Assembly (NCBI GenBank): GCA_002256205.1
Contig: NKIW01000003.1
Location: forward strand, 62,001 to 126,000
From: Rhizobiales bacterium PAR1
GTDB taxonomy: Bacteria; Pseudomonadota; Alphaproteobacteria; Rhizobiales; Beijerinckiaceae
Length of the DNA stretch: 64,000 bases
Direction of reading: 5' to 3'
Within the stretch, counting starts at the first letter, position 1, and every line of letters begins with the position of its first letter. Position numbers and translations under genes: made by a program. Below the pieces are notes generated by a model. That model was not told where the DNA came from. It saw only the letters and a list, made by a program, of their open reading frames with translations, and searched no databases. This document shows positions 2,686 through 15,989 of the stretch, one piece after another.

Positions 2686-3246
2686 ATGACCATTGGTTCG
2701 ATTTCCGGCCGGCTTCCCTCCCCACTGGCCGGAATAGGCGTCCGCGCGCCTGCCCCCTCACTGTGTAGCGCGGACGCCACCTTCTCCACTGATCCGGTGC
2801 GCGGCGAATTCGAGGGCTATGCCTCGCTGTTCGGCGTGATGGATCTCGGCCGCGATGTCGTGATGCCCGGCGCCTTTCGGGATACGATCGAGCGGCGCGG
2901 CGCGCCGGGCGTGAAGCTTCTCTGGCAGCATGATCCGGGCCAGCCGCTTGGTGTCTGGACCTCCATCGAGGAGGATGGCCGGGGGCTTTATGTCCGCGGC
3001 GCGCTCGACCTTCAGCAGGGCAAATCCCGCGAGGCGCTAAGCCTGATGCAGAAGGGCGCGCTCGACGGATTGTCCATCGGCTATCGCACCGAGATTGAAC
3101 GCAAGGACCCTTCCACGGGTCTGCGCCGGCTTGAGCGGATCGACCTGTGGGAAATCTCGCTGGTGACTTTTCCGCTGCTGCCGCAGGCGCGGGTGCGCTC
3201 GGTCAAAGCCGCGCCGCCGCCGGGTCGGAACCCCTATTTCATGTGA
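2686..3246 (+). CDS. GTA/phage prohead (HK97-family) maturation protease
   Basis: FEGYASLFGVMDLGRDVVMPGAF, LLWQHDPGQPLGVW, GLSIGYRT, LWEISLVTFPLLPQARV. Confidence 0.93.
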   Translation: MTIGSISGRLPSPLAGIGVRAPAPSLCSADATFSTDPVRGEFEGYASLFGVMDLGRDVVMPGAFRDTIERRGAPGVKLLWQHDPGQPLGVWTSIEEDGRGLYVRGALDLQQGKSREALSLMQKGALDGLSIGYRTEIERKDPSTGLRRLERIDLWEISLVTFPLLPQARVRSVKAAPPPGRNPYFM

Positions 3247-3326
3247 ACGGCCACCGATCCGATTTTCGCCAGCGATCGTGATCGCGGTGAGTTCAAGTCT
3301 ATCCGGCTCGCAAGGCCCGGATGTTC

Positions 3327-3348
3327 GCCGCCTTCGGGCGGCTTTTTT
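3327..3348 (+). terminator. Intrinsic-terminator-like hairpin upstream of the major capsid gene
   Basis: GCCGCC-TTCG-GGCGGC followed by T6 (UUCG tetraloop). Confidence 0.65.
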
Positions 3349-3369
3349 GCGTGAAAACAGAGGATACTG

Positions 3370-4602
3370 ATGATGGATCTCTCCAACAGCGGGCGCATGG
3401 CGCCCGAGACCAAGATTGATGACGCCCGCACGCATGAAGCGGCGGTGATGCAGACTTTCGAGGCGTTCAAGGCCGCAAATGACGAGCGTCTCGCCGAGAT
3501 CGAGCGCAAGCAGCGCGCCGATGTCCTGCTGGAAGAGAAGGTGGATCGCATCAACCGCGACATGGATCGGATGATCTCCAAGGCGGCCCGTCCGGCTCTT
3601 GGCGCCCCGGTGCGTCGCGACGAGGTGATTGCCATCGAGCACAAGGCGGCGTTCGAGTCCTATGCCCGTACGGGACAGGCCGATGCGATCCGCATGATCG
3701 AATCGAAGGCGCTGAACGGGGCCATCGCGCCGGATGGCGGCTACCTCCTGCCCCCGGATGCCGAAGCCTCCATCCTATCCCGCATGGCGGCGCTTTCGCC
3801 GATCCGTTCGGTGGCGATGGTGCGGACGCTTGCCAATTCGACCCTCAAGAAGGCCGTGTACCCGACAGGTTCGAATGGCGGCTGGTCGTCGCAGTCGACG
3901 GCCTCGAATACCGTGACGACGAACCAGTATTCCGAGCTGAGCTTCCCGACCATGGAGCTCTTCTCGCAGCCGGCGGCGACGCAGACCATGCTCGACGATG
4001 CGGCGGTGGATGTCGAATCCTGGATTTCGGATGAGATCGTCTACTCGTTTTCGGCGGCGGAAAGCACGGCCTTCATCAATGGTGACGGCATCAACAAGCC
4101 CAAAGGTCTCCTGAGTTACACCACGGTGGCCGATACCTCCTGGGCCTGGGGCAGCCTTGGAACTATCGCGACCGGCGTCTCCGCCGGTTTCTCCGCGACC
4201 AACCCGTCGGATATCCTGTTCGACTTCGCCCATGGCCTGAAAAGTGCCTACCGCCAGCATGGCACCTTTGTAATGAACCGGAAAACGCAAGGCGTGATCC
4301 GCAAGTTCAAGGATACGACCGGCAATTACATCTGGGCACCGCCGACCATGATCGGCGCCAAGGCAACCCTGATGAACTTCCCGGTCGTCGAAGCCGAGGA
4401 CATGCCGGATATCGCGGCAAATTCGCTCTCGGTGGCTTTCGGTGATTTCCGCCGCGGTTATCTCGTGATTGACCGCGTCGGCATCCGGGCGCTGCGCGAC
4501 CCGTATTCCGCCAAGCCCTATGTGCTGTTCTACACGACCAAGCGTGTCGGCGGCGGAGTGCAGGACTTCCAGGCGATCAAGCTATTGAAGTTCGGCGTTT
4601 AA
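3370..4602 (+). CDS. GTA/phage major capsid protein (HK97 fold)
   Basis: Coiled N-terminal region, then DGGYLLPPDAEASILSRMAALSPIRSVAMVR, ESTAFINGDGINKPKGLL, DYRRGYLVIDRVGI-like motif. Confidence 0.93.
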   Translation: MMDLSNSGRMAPETKIDDARTHEAAVMQTFEAFKAANDERLAEIERKQRADVLLEEKVDRINRDMDRMISKAARPALGAPVRRDEVIAIEHKAAFESYARTGQADAIRMIESKALNGAIAPDGGYLLPPDAEASILSRMAALSPIRSVAMVRTLANSTLKKAVYPTGSNGGWSSQSTASNTVTTNQYSELSFPTMELFSQPAATQTMLDDAAVDVESWISDEIVYSFSAAESTAFINGDGINKPKGLLSYTTVADTSWAWGSLGTIATGVSAGFSATNPSDILFDFAHGLKSAYRQHGTFVMNRKTQGVIRKFKDTTGNYIWAPPTMIGAKATLMNFPVVEAEDMPDIAANSLSVAFGDFRRGYLVIDRVGIRALRDPYSAKPYVLFYTTKRVGGGVQDFQAIKLLKFGV

Positions 4603-5405
4603 TCGCTCGATGAAATTGGGACAGCGCCTGCCACCCGGCTGCGGCTGCCCCAACGGATCAGCACACTATCGATCCATCCGCGTTGCGGGGCGATGCGCAC
4701 GGCCTGCGCTGTCGTCCCGCAATGCCGAGCGGTGCCGAATTTCTCTTTTCCGTAGATGACGCCGACCATCACGGAGCCATCGAAAACCGGGCCACCGGAA
4801 TCGCCGGTGCAGATGGCGAAATCGCCGAGGTCGGCATCAACGCGATAGCCGATCCGCATGAAGCGTGGGTAGATCTTCGGCAAGACGCTGGCCGAAGCGC
4901 TCCGCAACGTGCCGGAACTCGCTTCCTCGCGCTCGCCGATCAGACCGAAGCCCGCAATGGTTCTCCGGTCGCCAATGGCATGGGGATGCCCGTCCGCCTC
5001 AAGTTGAACCGGCACGAAACGATCCGGCAGGTTGGTCTCGAGCTTCAGCAGCGCCATGTCGATGGAGACATTGGACGCGCGGGAATAACCCGGATTGACC
5101 GCTTTGGTGGCGACACGCTGCACAATATGGGAGCCGTGCTCCTCGTAGGCGATGATCACCTGCTTCGCCTGCGCGACACAATGCGCGGCGGTGAGGATGA
5201 TATCCGGCGCGATGACGGTGCCGGTGCATGTGCCAAAACCGCGCGCGGCCGCCGATTCGACAATGACGACATGCGGCTTGAGGCCGGAATCAGCGCTGGT
5301 CGCCCTTCCGCCTAGGGAAAAGGCAGGAAAACTGGCGAAAGAACCGGTCAGAACGCCGGTGGCGAGGACGAGCGCAATGCGCCGGAAGCAAAAATCGTAG
5401 GTCAC
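4599..5405 (-). CDS. Secreted trypsin-like (S1) serine protease, antisense within the GTA cluster
   Basis: Signal-peptide-like N-terminus (GTG start); catalytic motifs TAAHC, SIDMALLKL, CTGDSGGPVF. Confidence 0.88.
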   Translation of the reverse strand: MTYDFCFRRIALVLATGVLTGSFASFPAFSLGGRATSADSGLKPHVVIVESAAARGFGTCTGTVIAPDIILTAAHCVAQAKQVIIAYEEHGSHIVQRVATKAVNPGYSRASNVSIDMALLKLETNLPDRFVPVQLEADGHPHAIGDRRTIAGFGLIGEREEASSGTLRSASASVLPKIYPRFMRIGYRVDADLGDFAICTGDSGGPVFDGSVMVGVIYGKEKFGTARHCGTTAQAVRIAPQRGWIDSVLIRWGSRSRVAGAVPISSSD

Positions 5406-5436
5406 GGACGGACCATTACACCGGTCACGGGACCGC

Positions 5437-5499
5437 GCAAGTCATCTGTCTACCCCAGCAAGTCATCTGTCTACCCGCCAAGCCATCTGATCCGCCAGG
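5437..5499. repeat. Three head-to-tail ~21-bp direct repeats (two near-identical, one degenerate)
   Basis: gcaagtcatctgtctacccca / gcaagtcatctgtctacccgc / caagccatctgatccgccagg. Confidence 0.8.
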
Positions 5500-9985: not shown

Positions 9986-10441
9986 ATGGCAGAAATCGAT
10001 ATGCCGTCCTCCGGTCGCCCGGAGGTCGTGGCTGCCGCACGCGCCTGGGTCGGCACGCCCTATCGGCATCAGGCATCGTTGCGCGGGGTCGGCTGTGATT
10101 GCCTCGGGTTGCTGCGCGGCGTCTGGCGCGACCTTTTCGGCGATGAACCGGAGACGCCGGAGCCCTATTCACCCGCCTGGGCGGAACTTGCCGAGGGTGA
10201 CCCCCTGCTGGCCGCGGCGATGCGCCATCTCGTGCATTCCACGGATGGCATCATCCGGCCCGGCTCGGTGCTGGTGTTCCGCTGGCGTGCCCATGTCGCG
10301 GCCAAGCATTGCGGCATCGCGACGGACGATACGCATTTCCTGCATGCCCATGACGGCGCCTCGGTCGCGGAAGTCGCGATTGTGTCGGGCTGGCGACGTC
10401 GGATCGTGGGCATTTTTGATTTTCCGGATCGGATGAGCTGA
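9986..10441 (+). CDS. GTA NlpC/P60-family peptidase (gp14-like)
   Basis: ARAWVGTPYRHQASLRGVGCDCLGLLRGVWRDLFG (catalytic Cys context); AKHCGIATDDTHFLHAH. Confidence 0.9.
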   Translation: MAEIDMPSSGRPEVVAAARAWVGTPYRHQASLRGVGCDCLGLLRGVWRDLFGDEPETPEPYSPAWAELAEGDPLLAAAMRHLVHSTDGIIRPGSVLVFRWRAHVAAKHCGIATDDTHFLHAHDGASVAEVAIVSGWRRRIVGIFDFPDRMS

Positions 10442-13400
10442 TGGCGACCATTGCACTCCAGATTGCCGGCACGGCGCTCGGCACCTTTCTTGGCGGCCCG
10501 ATTGGTGGGGCGCTCGGCTCCGCCCTGGGGGGCACGCTTGGCGCGATGGTCGACCGCTCACTGCTCGGCGGCGGCAAGGCGATCGAAGGGCCGCGCCTCT
10601 CCAATATCAACGGGATCACCGCGACAGAAGGGGCGCCGATCCCGCGTGCCTATGGCCGCGTGCGGCTTGGCGGACAGGTGATCTGGGCCACGGAATTCGA
10701 AGAGCAAAGGGTTGTCGAAAAGAACGGGACCAGCGGCGGCAAGTCCACCGGCGCAACGGCGACCAAAACCGTCCGCTACACCTATTTTGCCAATGTCGCG
10801 ATCGGCTTATGCGAAGGGCCGATCCATTTCGTGCGCCGCATCTGGGCCGATGGCGAGGAACTCGATCTCGCAGCGCTGACCTTCCGCACCTATACCGGCA
10901 GCGAGACGCAGGAAGCTGATCCGTTGATCGTCGCCAAGCAGGAGACGAGCGCTGTGCCGGCGTTTCGTGGGTTGGCTTACGTTGTATTCGAGCGCTTGCC
11001 GCTTGCGAACTACGGAAATCGCTTGCCACAGTTCAGCTTCGAGGTGGTGCGCGCCGCGCCCGGACTGCCGGAGCAGCTTCGGGCTATCAATCTCATGCCT
11101 GGCTCCACTGAATTCGGCTATGCCACCACCGAAGTTCGCGAAGACTTCGGGCTGGGCTCCTCGCAGCCGATCAACCGGTCGCAATGGACCCATGCCACCG
11201 ATTGGGAAGCGGGGCTCGATGCCTTGATGGCGGTTGCACCCAATCTCGAACGTGCGACGCTGATCAGTGCCTGGTTCGGCGACGATTTGCGGGCGGCATC
11301 CTGCACCTTCCGGCCCAAGGTCGAGAAGAATGCGAAGGCGACAACCGGCCAGCAATGGCAGGCGGCGGGCTTGACCCGTGCGAGTGCTCAAGCGGTCTCT
11401 GAAAGCGACGGACGCCCGAGCTTTGGCGGTTCGCCCTCTGACCAGAGTGTGGTCGAAGCGATCCGCGATCTCAAGGCGCGCGGGCTGAAGGTTGCGCTCC
11501 ACCCTTTCGTGTTGATGGATATTCCGGCGAGCAATGTCAGGCCTGACCCCTGGACCGGCGCCGCGTCGCAGCCTGCCTATCCCTGGCGGGGGCGGATCAC
11601 CTGTGACCCCGCGCCGGGACGCGCTGGAAGTCCTGAAAGCTCCACGGCGGTTTCCGCTCAGATCAATACTTTGATGGGAACCGCGACGGCTGCGCATTTT
11701 GCTCTTACGGGCGATACAGTTGTCTATTCGGGGCCGAACGAATGGTCGTTCCGGCGAATGGTGCTGCACCATGCCATGCTCGCCAAGGCGGCGGGCGGAG
11801 TGGAGACCTTCATCCTCTCCTCTGAATTGATCGGCTTGACGCGCTTGTCATCCGGCAACGGGAATTACCCCTTCGTGCAGGCGATGATCGGGCTGCTGGC
11901 GAACCTGCGCAGCATTCTCGGACCCTCGACCGTGATCACCTATGCGGCGGACTGGAGCGAATATGGCGCGGATACCCGCAATGGCGGGCAGGAGGTGCGC
12001 TTCCCGCTCGATCCGCTTTGGGCACATGCCGAGATCGGAGCGATCGGGATCGATTTTTACCCGCCACTCACGGATTGGCGCGATGGGCGCGACCATCTCG
12101 ATGCGGCGGAGGCGAAGAGCGCCGTTGATGCGGGGTACATTGCGGATCGCATCACGGCCGGCGAAGCCTTCGATTGGTATTACGCGAGCGAGGCTGGCCG
12201 GAAGGCGCAGCAGCGTCTGTCGATCAGCGATGGCGCTTATGGCAAGCCGTGGGTGTTCCGCCAGAAAGACCTGAAGAACTGGTGGAGCCAGCCGCATGTC
12301 GAGCGCGTCGGTGGGGTGGAGTTGGCGCAGCCGACGGCCTTTGTGCCGGGCGCCAAGCCGATTTACCTCACCGAGATCGGCTGCCCGGCTGTCGACAAGG
12401 GCGCAAACCAACCAAACGTCTTTCCCGATCCGAAGTCGACCGAAAATGCGTTGCCGTATTTTTCGAATGGCAGCCGCGACGATCTCGTCCAATGCCGCGT
12501 GCTGGAAGCCTATCTCCGGCGCTTTGATCCGGCTGTGTCGGGATTTGATCCTGCGGATAATCCGGCAGCGAGCCTCTATGCCGGTCGTATGATCGATCCC
12601 TCGTTCATCGCGCCATGGGCCTATGATGTCCGGCCTTATCCGGCTTTTCCTTTGCAGCGCAGCCTCTGGGCAGATGGGACGAATTGGCTGCACGGGCATT
12701 GGCTAAATGGCCGGCTTGAGGCCCTGCCCGTCGATGCGCTGCTCACGATGATCGCCGAGGATATGGAGGTTCAGGCACCCGCTTTCGAGCACGCCGACGG
12801 TTTTGTCGATGGCTATGTAATCGATCGTCCGATGAGTGCACGAGCGGCGGTTGAGCCTGTCGCGGCCACTTTTGGCCTTGTTGCAACGACGACCGGCGAT
12901 GTGATCCGGTTCGGCGGGAGGCCGGTGACTGTCGATGTCACGCTCATTGAGGAAGATCTCGTTCCGGCCAAGGATGGCAAGCTGGTCGAGATCACCCGCA
13001 AGCAGGAGAGCGAACTGCCCCGGCAATTGAGCTTCGGGTACATCGATGGCGAGAACGGCTTTCGGCAGGCGGTGGCTTTAGCGGAAACCTCGGTGGTGGA
13101 ATCTAGCCGCGAGCAAACGCTTTCGGCGGCGCTTCATTTGCCGCGCGGGTTGGCGCGGCGACTGGCTGAAACCCGACTTCAGGATATCTGGAGCGGACGC
13201 GAGACCTTTTCCTTCCGCCTGCGCCCAAACCTTCAGACGCTGGAGCCGGGCGATCTTGTCTCGCTGCCCACCGCTTCCGGCGCTCGGCTGGTGCAGATCA
13301 CGCGGATCACCGATGGGGCCTATCGCGAGTGCGAGGCGCGGGCCTATGATCCGCAATTCGCGGAAACCAGCCCAACGCTTGACGAACTGCCTCCCGAAAC

Positions 13401-14346
13401 GGGTATTCCTGCTCTGCCGGGGGCGGCCTTCGTCCGGTTGATGGAACTGCCGCTGGATCGGGGAGGAGGACTGTTATCGGCGGTGGTGCGGGCCGATCCC
13501 TGGCGCGGGCCGTATTCCGTTCTGCTCAACGCCGGTGGAATACCGACCTTGGCAGGCACAGTGCCGACAACAGCACTGGTCGGAAAGACACTGACGCCGC
13601 TTTCCGCGGGACCGCTCTGGCGCTGGGATGAGGCGGCGAGCCTTGAAGTTCAGGTTGAAGGCGGAGCGCTTGGAAGCCTTGGTGCCGAAGCAACGCTTGC
13701 GGGCGGAAATGCGCTCGCCCTGATCGCGCCTTCGGGCGAGATCGAGGTGATCCTGTTCCGGCGTGCGGAGCTTGTGGGTGAGAAGCGTTACCGCGTTTCG
13801 GGTCTGTTGCGCGGAATAGGCGGATCGGAAGCCGCAGCGACGCGCGTTCTCGCACCCGGCGCAGATGTCATCGTGCTCGACGATGCCGTGACGGATATTG
13901 GCATGGGCAGCGAGGCCATTGGCGCGGCCAAGAACCATATCATCCTCCCGGCGGGCCGCGATCTTGGCGATCCGACAGCGGTGAATGCGAGTGCGACGCC
14001 CTCAGGTGTCGCTCTGATGCCGCTTGCACCGGTACACCCCAAGGCGCGGCGCGAGGCGGGCGGAGTTCGCTTTTCCTTCATCCGGCGCACCCGAAAGGAT
14101 GGCGACTCCTTCGATCTCTTCGAGGTCCCCTTGGGGGAGGAAGTCGAGGAATACCGCTTCGAGGTGATGAACGGGGCCGCCGTGGTTCGAACGGTTGTCC
14201 TCTCGACTCCAGACTATCTCTACCCGACAGCGAGCGAGTTGGCGGATTTTGGTGCCGGCCAATCGAACATCGCCGTTCGCGTTCGGCAGGTGAGCCGAAC
14301 CGTGGGGCCCGGTGCCGCGCTCATCGCGACCATTCCGGCTTTGTAA
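10441..14346 (+). CDS. GTA baseplate multidomain / host-specificity protein (gp15-like)
   Basis: 1301 aa; GGPIGGALGSALGGTLGAMVDR, GTA TIM-barrel region (FILSSELIGLT, YAADWSEY, IGIDFYPPLTDWRDG), PIYLTEIGCPAVDKGANQPNVF. Confidence 0.95.
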   Translation: MATIALQIAGTALGTFLGGPIGGALGSALGGTLGAMVDRSLLGGGKAIEGPRLSNINGITATEGAPIPRAYGRVRLGGQVIWATEFEEQRVVEKNGTSGGKSTGATATKTVRYTYFANVAIGLCEGPIHFVRRIWADGEELDLAALTFRTYTGSETQEADPLIVAKQETSAVPAFRGLAYVVFERLPLANYGNRLPQFSFEVVRAAPGLPEQLRAINLMPGSTEFGYATTEVREDFGLGSSQPINRSQWTHATDWEAGLDALMAVAPNLERATLISAWFGDDLRAASCTFRPKVEKNAKATTGQQWQAAGLTRASAQAVSESDGRPSFGGSPSDQSVVEAIRDLKARGLKVALHPFVLMDIPASNVRPDPWTGAASQPAYPWRGRITCDPAPGRAGSPESSTAVSAQINTLMGTATAAHFALTGDTVVYSGPNEWSFRRMVLHHAMLAKAAGGVETFILSSELIGLTRLSSGNGNYPFVQAMIGLLANLRSILGPSTVITYAADWSEYGADTRNGGQEVRFPLDPLWAHAEIGAIGIDFYPPLTDWRDGRDHLDAAEAKSAVDAGYIADRITAGEAFDWYYASEAGRKAQQRLSISDGAYGKPWVFRQKDLKNWWSQPHVERVGGVELAQPTAFVPGAKPIYLTEIGCPAVDKGANQPNVFPDPKSTENALPYFSNGSRDDLVQCRVLEAYLRRFDPAVSGFDPADNPAASLYAGRMIDPSFIAPWAYDVRPYPAFPLQRSLWADGTNWLHGHWLNGRLEALPVDALLTMIAEDMEVQAPAFEHADGFVDGYVIDRPMSARAAVEPVAATFGLVATTTGDVIRFGGRPVTVDVTLIEEDLVPAKDGKLVEITRKQESELPRQLSFGYIDGENGFRQAVALAETSVVESSREQTLSAALHLPRGLARRLAETRLQDIWSGRETFSFRLRPNLQTLEPGDLVSLPTASGARLVQITRITDGAYRECEARAYDPQFAETSPTLDELPPETGIPALPGAAFVRLMELPLDRGGGLLSAVVRADPWRGPYSVLLNAGGIPTLAGTVPTTALVGKTLTPLSAGPLWRWDEAASLEVQVEGGALGSLGAEATLAGGNALALIAPSGEIEVILFRRAELVGEKRYRVSGLLRGIGGSEAAATRVLAPGADVIVLDDAVTDIGMGSEAIGAAKNHIILPAGRDLGDPTAVNASATPSGVALMPLAPVHPKARREAGGVRFSFIRRTRKDGDSFDLFEVPLGEEVEEYRFEVMNGAAVVRTVVLSTPDYLYPTASELADFGAGQSNIAVRVRQVSRTVGPGAALIATIPAL

Positions 14347-14371: not shown

Positions 14372-15262
14372 ATGGCAAGCGAAAGCTTCGAGCCAGCGCT
14401 GACCTGCGTCCTTGCGCAGGAGGGTGGCTACTCCGACCACCCCGCTGATCCCGGCGGTGCGACCATGATGGGCATCACGCAAGGAACGCTCGCGGAATGG
14501 CGTGGGAATGCGGTGACGAAAGCCGATGTCCGGGCGTTGAGCCGGACGGAAGTCGCCGAGATCTATCGTAAACGCTACTGGGATTCCGTGCATGGTGATC
14601 AGTTGCCGGCCGGACTCGATCTGGCCGTGTTTGATTTTGCGGTCAACTCCGGCGTCTCGCGGGCGGTCCGGAGCCTCCAACGCGTGCTCGGGGTTGCCGC
14701 GGATGGACGCGTCGGGCCGGAGACGCTTCAAGCGGTGGCCATCTGCGATCCGGGCGAGATGGTCACGCGATTGTCTGCGCTGCGGCTCGCGTTTCTTGAA
14801 GCGCTTTCGACCTTCCCGGTCTTCGGTCGCGGCTGGACGCGGCGCGTACGCGAGGTCGAGGCCGAGGCCCGCAAGCTGGTGTCAGCTTTATCCGTCACCC
14901 CCGCTCGACTTCCCTCTACCACAAAGGAGCTTGCCCCCATGGACATCACCAAAGGAATTCTGACCAGCCGCACCGTTTGGGCAAATGCGATTGGCATAGG
15001 CGCGCTCGCGCTCTCCTGGCTTGGCTTTGATACAAGCGGTCTCGACAAGGGCGCGCTGACCGATAGCCTGTTACAGGCTCTCGCCGGGGTCAGTTTTGTC
15101 GCTTCGACGATGTTCCGCATTCTCGCGACGAAACGTCTGGATTCTCGCGACGAAACGTCTGGCCTGATCGGAGAGCCCCGTTTGACCGTTTTGTATGCAA
15201 GCGGGGTGGATCACGGATTTTCTGTCGAAACGCCGGCGAGTTGGTATATGTGTGCGCGATAG
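14372..15262 (+). CDS. GH108 endolysin fused in frame to a holin-like TM segment, with a frameshift-extended C-terminus
   Basis: LAQEGGYSDHPADPGGATMMGIT (GH108 EGGY motif), VFDFAVNSGVSRAVRSLQRVLGVAADGRVG; then MDITKGILTSRTVWANAIGIGALALSWLGF...ATKRL. Confidence 0.88.
   Translation: MASESFEPALTCVLAQEGGYSDHPADPGGATMMGITQGTLAEWRGNAVTKADVRALSRTEVAEIYRKRYWDSVHGDQLPAGLDLAVFDFAVNSGVSRAVRSLQRVLGVAADGRVGPETLQAVAICDPGEMVTRLSALRLAFLEALSTFPVFGRGWTRRVREVEAEARKLVSALSVTPARLPSTTKELAPMDITKGILTSRTVWANAIGIGALALSWLGFDTSGLDKGALTDSLLQALAGVSFVASTMFRILATKRLDSRDETSGLIGEPRLTVLYASGVDHGFSVETPASWYMCAR
14923..14941 (+). promoter_or_regulatory. Internal Shine-Dalgarno plus ATG for a possible stand-alone holin-like product
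   Basis: AAAGGAG (14923-14929), 9-nt spacer, ATG at 14939 in frame with the endolysin. Confidence 0.55.
15119..15162 (+). repeat. Exact 22-bp tandem duplication
   Basis: attctcgcgacgaaacgtctgg repeated twice head-to-tail (15119-15140, 15141-15162). Confidence 0.97.
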
Positions 15263-15311
15263 CCGGGCGCGTCGGTGCGCCCGGATTCGGCTGGACGAAC
15301 CGGAGTTTGAA

Positions 15312-15989
15312 ATGCGCCTTCTCGTGATTGAGGATGATCGGGACCTGAACCGCCAACTTGTGGCGGCACTGGAAGACGCAGGATATGCCGTCGACAAGGC
15401 GTTCGACGGCGAAGAAGGGCATTTTCTCGGCGATACCGAACCTTATGATGGTGTGATCCTCGATATGGGTCTTCCGCTGATGGACGGTATTCGCGTGCTC
15501 GAAAAATGGCGTCGGGGCGGCCGGACCATGCCAGTGCTGATCCTTACCGCGCGCGATCGCTGGAGCGAAAAGGTGCAGGGCTTCGATGCCGGCGCCGACG
15601 ATTACGTCACCAAACCGTTTCATATGGAAGAAGTACTCGCGCGGCTGCGGGCACTGCTGCGCCGCGCAGCGGGCCATGCCACAAGCGAGTTGATGTGCGG
15701 GCCCGTGTTGCTCGATACGCGCTCAAGTCGCGTGGTGGTGGACGGCAGTGCGGTGCGGCTCACCAGCCATGAATACCGCCTGCTGGCCTATCTGATGCAC
15801 CATCAGGGGCGGGTGGTTTCGCGGACCGAGTTGGTCGAGCACCTTTACGATCAGGATTTTGATCGCGATTCCAACACGATTGAAGTCTTCGTTGGCCGTT
15901 TGCGCAAGAAACTCGGCGTCGACATCATCCAGACCGTGCGTGGCCTCGGATATATTGCTGCCCCGCCGGAACCGCCGGCCAAGCGCTAA
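15312..15989 (+). CDS. OmpR/PhoP-family response regulator (FeuP-like)
   Basis: MRLLVIEDDRDLNRQLVAALEDAGYAVD, ILDMGLPLMDG, ADDYVTKPF, winged-helix C-terminus; followed by an HK and ccmI. Confidence 0.9.
   Translation: MRLLVIEDDRDLNRQLVAALEDAGYAVDKAFDGEEGHFLGDTEPYDGVILDMGLPLMDGIRVLEKWRRGGRTMPVLILTARDRWSEKVQGFDAGADDYVTKPFHMEEVLARLRALLRRAAGHATSELMCGPVLLDTRSSRVVVDGSAVRLTSHEYRLLAYLMHHQGRVVSRTELVEHLYDQDFDRDSNTIEVFVGRLRKKLGVDIIQTVRGLGYIAAPPEPPAKR

Follow-up and report, generated by a model that had tools for sequence, protein, structure and literature searches.

What does the lysis gene behind the gene transfer agent (GTA) cluster of Rhizobiales bacterium PAR1 encode, and what has an exact 22-bp tandem duplication near its 3′ end done to its products? 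The gene lies within a 64,000-nucleotide stretch of contig NKIW01000003.1 (here, the window), directly 3′ of a complete RcGTA-like cluster that is colinear, with genes open from terminase to g15, in the order terminase, portal, protease, capsid, adaptors, tail tube, GTA-gp10, a tape-measure-like gene, NlpC/P60, and g15. This gene content places the cluster, as far as can be judged from sequence, among the RcGTA-like (alphaproteobacterial type I) agents, a kind of domesticated phage. The g15 homologue (10441 to 14346; GTA_TIM, Phage-tail_3, and Rcc01698_C) is its last structural gene, and an OmpR-type response regulator (15312 to 15989), which serves as a marker of synteny because related GTA loci also have it 3′ of the lysis gene, stands on the other side; these and all features below are on the forward strand unless noted. 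Antisense in the cluster, in the interval between capsid and head-tail adaptor, lies a gene named from its sequence as a trypsin-like serine protease (4599 to 5405, reverse strand). The intergenic segment between it and the head-tail adaptor gene holds an imperfect 21-bp repeat of about 2.7 copies with one exact 40-bp stretch (5433 to 5489), a second short tandem repeat in the GTA cluster.

As it now reads, the lysis gene (14372 to 15262) opens with the ATG at 14372 and closes with TAG (15260 to 15262), giving 296 aa that comprise a GH108 endolysin with PG_binding_3, a linker, a two-helix membrane domain, and a 40-aa new tail. The assignment of residues 1 to 166 (14372 to 14869) as a GH108 muramidase is one on which Pfam (PF05838), PHROG, and fold agree. 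The structure model superposes on Brucella SagA (7dnp) with a TMt of 0.86, and E17-G-G and its surrounding residues are invariant among aligned relatives, so that family match, fold, and the conserved EGG glutamate all point to a GH108 endolysin. The membrane domain (residues 190 to 256, 67 residues) has hydrophobic helices at about residues 200 to 216 and 226 to 256 (14969 to 15139), for which AlphaFold confidence is only about 60. It matched no Pfam or PHROG family, holin families included, at E ≤ 0.1, and a PDB sequence search returned nothing, but it has the traits of a holin-like protein: small size, two hydrophobic helices, a charged C-terminus, and an adjacent endolysin. A class-wide search finds it largely confined to Hyphomicrobiales. 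Both domains are under purifying selection: against the nearest relative, dS exceeds 1 but dN is about 0.23. The earlier note, which called the product a lysis protein from the letters and their translations, was right in this respect.

The linker between the two domains (residues 167 to 189; 14870 to 14938) shows no constraint at the protein level, with dN at 1.0 or above in all comparisons made against the window gene. However, it carries a Shine-Dalgarno (SD) sequence, AAGGAG (14924 to 14929), 9 nt before an in-frame ATG at 14939, from which a second product (14939 to 15262) is predicted, ancestrally of 68 aa and now of 107 aa. All 16 genus members have an SD (AAGGAG in most, with a match length of 4 to 6 bases) 6 to 10 nt before an in-frame ATG, compared with 5/57 other in-frame Met codons and 9/80 out-of-frame ATGs. 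The difference between 16/16 and 5/57 gives a Fisher P of 4e-12, a value that overstates independence because the orthologues are related and because the linker Met was chosen for having the highest score, 0 being the score of the remaining Mets in the linker. We infer that translation would also start at ATG 14939 and that the gene probably makes two proteins from one frame, a full-length endolysin that its C-terminus anchors in the membrane and a short two-helix protein. The short form is predicted to act as a holin-like protein or as a lysis-timing partner of the long form.

In several other Hyphomicrobiales families, the membrane domain has a gene to itself, equipped with an SD and flanked directly by g15 on one side and this response regulator on the other, and such a gene is also present in MW091529. 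That record, MW091529.1, is titled “Bacteriophage sp. 103231” but has the look of a GTA locus from an alphaproteobacterium; the CDS at 3157 to 3849, annotated as an “antibiotic efflux protein,” is a response regulator by Pfam. Enterovirga has the same GH108 fusion as the window, again between g15 and the response regulator. In a further family, the membrane domain is fused in frame in 5/5 genomes, directly behind g15, to a GH19 plus PG_binding_1 endolysin (two proteins examined), and the SD and ATG are kept in all four of the loci examined. Eleven Devosia-type GTA loci combine GH108 with a different-looking membrane segment and have an SD and start at the same point, the start being ATG in all except one. 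The exception is the GTA locus of Devosia indica (L038, about 3000 to 3200), where the nested start is GTG with a strong AAGGAG, while its relatives have ATG. A single fusion cannot, by simple descent, account for the GH108 version as well as the GH19 one.

The standalone genes suggest another origin for the internal SD and ATG: fusion of such a gene to an endolysin would bring its SD along, and the signals would then be leftovers of an old gene fusion in a gene whose sole product is the full-length membrane-anchored endolysin. We consider this unlikely, since linker sequence and length diverge among the 16 genus members and yet the SD, its spacing, and the start codon are kept in every one. 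They are also kept in separate lineages, and the ATG-to-GTG exchange in one Devosia locus likewise argues for two products.

The 22-bp unit ATTCTCGCGACGAAACGTCTGG is present near the end of this gene as two identical head-to-tail copies (15119 to 15140 and 15141 to 15162), as the earlier note had reported, and these are its only two matches in the 4.2-Mb genome. The exact pair is far beyond chance and is the only perfect tandem pair with a period of 12 to 150 in the window. Among same-genus orthologues (53 to 66% identity; the genus includes Rhabdaerophilum calidifontis), 15/15 have a single copy, and in each the motif ...F-R-x-x-A-(T/S)-(K/R)-(K/R)-L has only one or two further residues behind it before TGA, at the position of the window's TGA at 15165 to 15167, which now lies out of frame. 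The ...ATKRLA end and the frameshifted stop that had been proposed from the sequence thus agree with the orthologues, and their single copies and shared TGA indicate that the two-copy state is derived. A long C-terminus in the orthologues would have contradicted this order of events and was looked for; none of the relatives has one. Of 48 further homologues of this C-terminal domain, one stops 3 residues short of the end of the profile and the remaining 47 run 0 to 7 residues beyond it (in one case by extrapolation from a partial hit), compared with +40 in the window.

That a single genome represents the species and every relative has one copy could also mean that the second copy is an assembly or consensus error and that the cell carries only one. 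A perfect 22-bp tandem is shorter than ordinary sequencing reads, and misassembly that adds a copy is rare. Moreover, the assembly, in 25 contigs, reaches 99.3% completeness, and the window gene shows normal constraint elsewhere, so we regard an artifact as quite improbable.

Short tandem-duplication frameshifts are a known kind of mutation in bacteria, and the window case resembles them in being an exact short tandem duplication that shifts the frame; what sets it apart is only its position, along with a junction microhomology of zero. In sampled stretches of the rest of the genome (723 kb), there are nine exact tandem pairs with a period of at least 12, one of them with a period of at least 20 (27 bp) and six with 0 to 1 bp extra. 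This corresponds to about 1 per 80 kb, both in and out of frame, and indicates that the 22-bp duplication belongs to an ordinary class of mutation in this genome; by itself, it is a minor strain-level mutation. The same genome has exact tandem duplications of 17 and 19 bp, neither a multiple of 3, inside or ending long open frames (L120:12002-12036 and L124:1597-1635).

The earlier note had attributed the pair to slippage and suggested that it was recent and possibly reversible. Microhomology at the junction is 0 bp on both sides of the duplication, which does not favor classical slippage between direct repeats and leaves that part of the proposal unsupported. Within each copy, a 4-bp hairpin (GACG-AAA-CGTC) is possible, and this might stall replication. 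Two other sources were considered and rejected: Ku-dependent nonhomologous end joining, as a route to a homology-free duplication, because the genome lacks Ku, and a transposon target-site duplication, because the copies are neither separated nor flanked by an insert or footprint and such duplications are not usually 22 bp long. Recency fares better. The copies do not differ at any of 22 aligned positions, which gives, as a rough and simple Poisson bound, an age below about 0.07 substitutions per site, compared with a dS above 1 between the window gene and that of the nearest species; the duplication would therefore be much younger than the species split. We conclude with good confidence that this allele arose by a recent tandem duplication of 22 bp, confined to its lineage, in the 3′ end of a GTA lysis gene that normally gives two products.

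A reversible phase-variation switch that tunes lysis, the use suggested by the earlier note, seems very doubtful. A perfect 22-bp tandem repeat could contract in principle, and gain or loss of 22 bp would toggle the reading frame. However, there are only two copies rather than an array, the junction lacks microhomology, no relative has a repeat at this site (15/15 orthologues having one copy), and pairs of this kind recur at the background rate given above. A search of public viral contigs for one- and two-copy alleles returned no match and thus no second allele.

The extra copy shifts the frame by +1, and the ancestral TGA is skipped so that the last residue is replaced by 40 residues from the intergenic leader. 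The resulting tail, DSRDETSGLIGEPRLTVLYASGVDHGFSVETPASWYMCAR (residues 257 to 296; 15140 to 15259), is a net gain of 39 residues over the ancestral ...KRL-A end, where 37 added residues had been counted at first. The claim that the frame runs into the leader of the response regulator stands in so far as only the leader and promoter region is entered; there is no gene overlap, the present stop being separated by 49 nt from the response-regulator ATG at 15312, and the coding region and SD of that gene are intact despite the duplication. The element TGGTATAT (15242 to 15249), extended -10-like and 5′ of the response regulator, is now translated within the tail; exact or near equivalents are present in many relatives, though not in all. 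Directly 3′ of the present stop, within the same leader, is a perfect hairpin with an 8-bp stem, CCGGGCGC-GTCGGT-GCGCCCGG (15263 to 15284), without a T run.

The tail has a pLDDT of about 28, is predicted to be disordered, and contains no hydrophobic segment. That it is an adaptive new domain under selection is hardly credible, since its 40 codons do remain open in an otherwise conserved gene but derive from a former noncoding leader that includes the extended -10-like element, have a lower GC3 (0.55 against 0.67 to 0.74), and encode a disordered stretch found in no relative. The tail is more plausibly neutral to mildly harmful, with lysis weaker or mistimed. Because the long and short products share a C-terminus, the duplication would extend both and would place the tail beside the basic (K/R)(K/R)L terminus of each. 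The length of the C-terminus is otherwise so constant that the tail appears more likely to impair lysis, slightly or severely, than to improve it.

Taken together, we propose, at a probability of about 0.7, that Hyphomicrobiales GTAs carry a nested lysis gene that pairs an anchored endolysin with a holin-like partner from an internal start, built from various endolysin domains (GH108 and GH19) and membrane segments in one recurring position behind g15, and that the window holds a C-terminal-extension allele of both products. Single genes that yield two-polypeptide endolysins are known from phages (Pinto et al. 2022, PMC9430671; CTP1L, PMC4777826; phi2638A, PMC12203907). The likeness lies in one gene giving two in-frame products with a common stop, of which the shorter begins inside the gene, and a conserved in-frame internal start with an SD is found here as well. 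However, those are Gram-positive systems in which the C-terminal domains bind the cell wall, whereas the window represents a GTA in a Gram-negative host, and its short product is predicted to be no wall-binding domain but a two-helix, holin-like membrane protein whose counterparts in relatives have genes of their own. Gram-negative phages were omitted from the survey of PMC9430671 as unlikely to carry internal starts.

Among GTAs, RcGTA of Rhodobacter capsulatus has an endolysin (rcc00555) and a holin (rcc00556) (PMC3423380), and holin-endolysin lysis for GTA release is cited in PMC13236601. The locus described here resembles it in the predicted use of an endolysin and a holin-like protein for particle release; unlike the two separate genes of RcGTA, it has one gene directly behind g15 with predicted nested products. 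The related GTA of Caulobacter crescentus depends for the same function on the LypABC lysis hub and was found to lack canonical genes for an endolysin or holin (PMC13236601), whereas here an endolysin gene sits within the GTA locus. On the subject of holin genes in GTAs of Hyphomicrobiales, the literature search yielded one marginal paper.

Many Hyphomicrobiales GTA loci thus appear to come with their own lysis module, in which a small membrane gene either stands alone or is nested behind an endolysin, and this bears on host lysis by RcGTA-like agents other than those of Rhodobacter. The nested gene would make lysis by these GTAs open to experiment and would add a Gram-negative example to the two-product endolysin genes. 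If the reading is true, the strain from which the window derives would be a natural variant for probing the function of the C-terminus.
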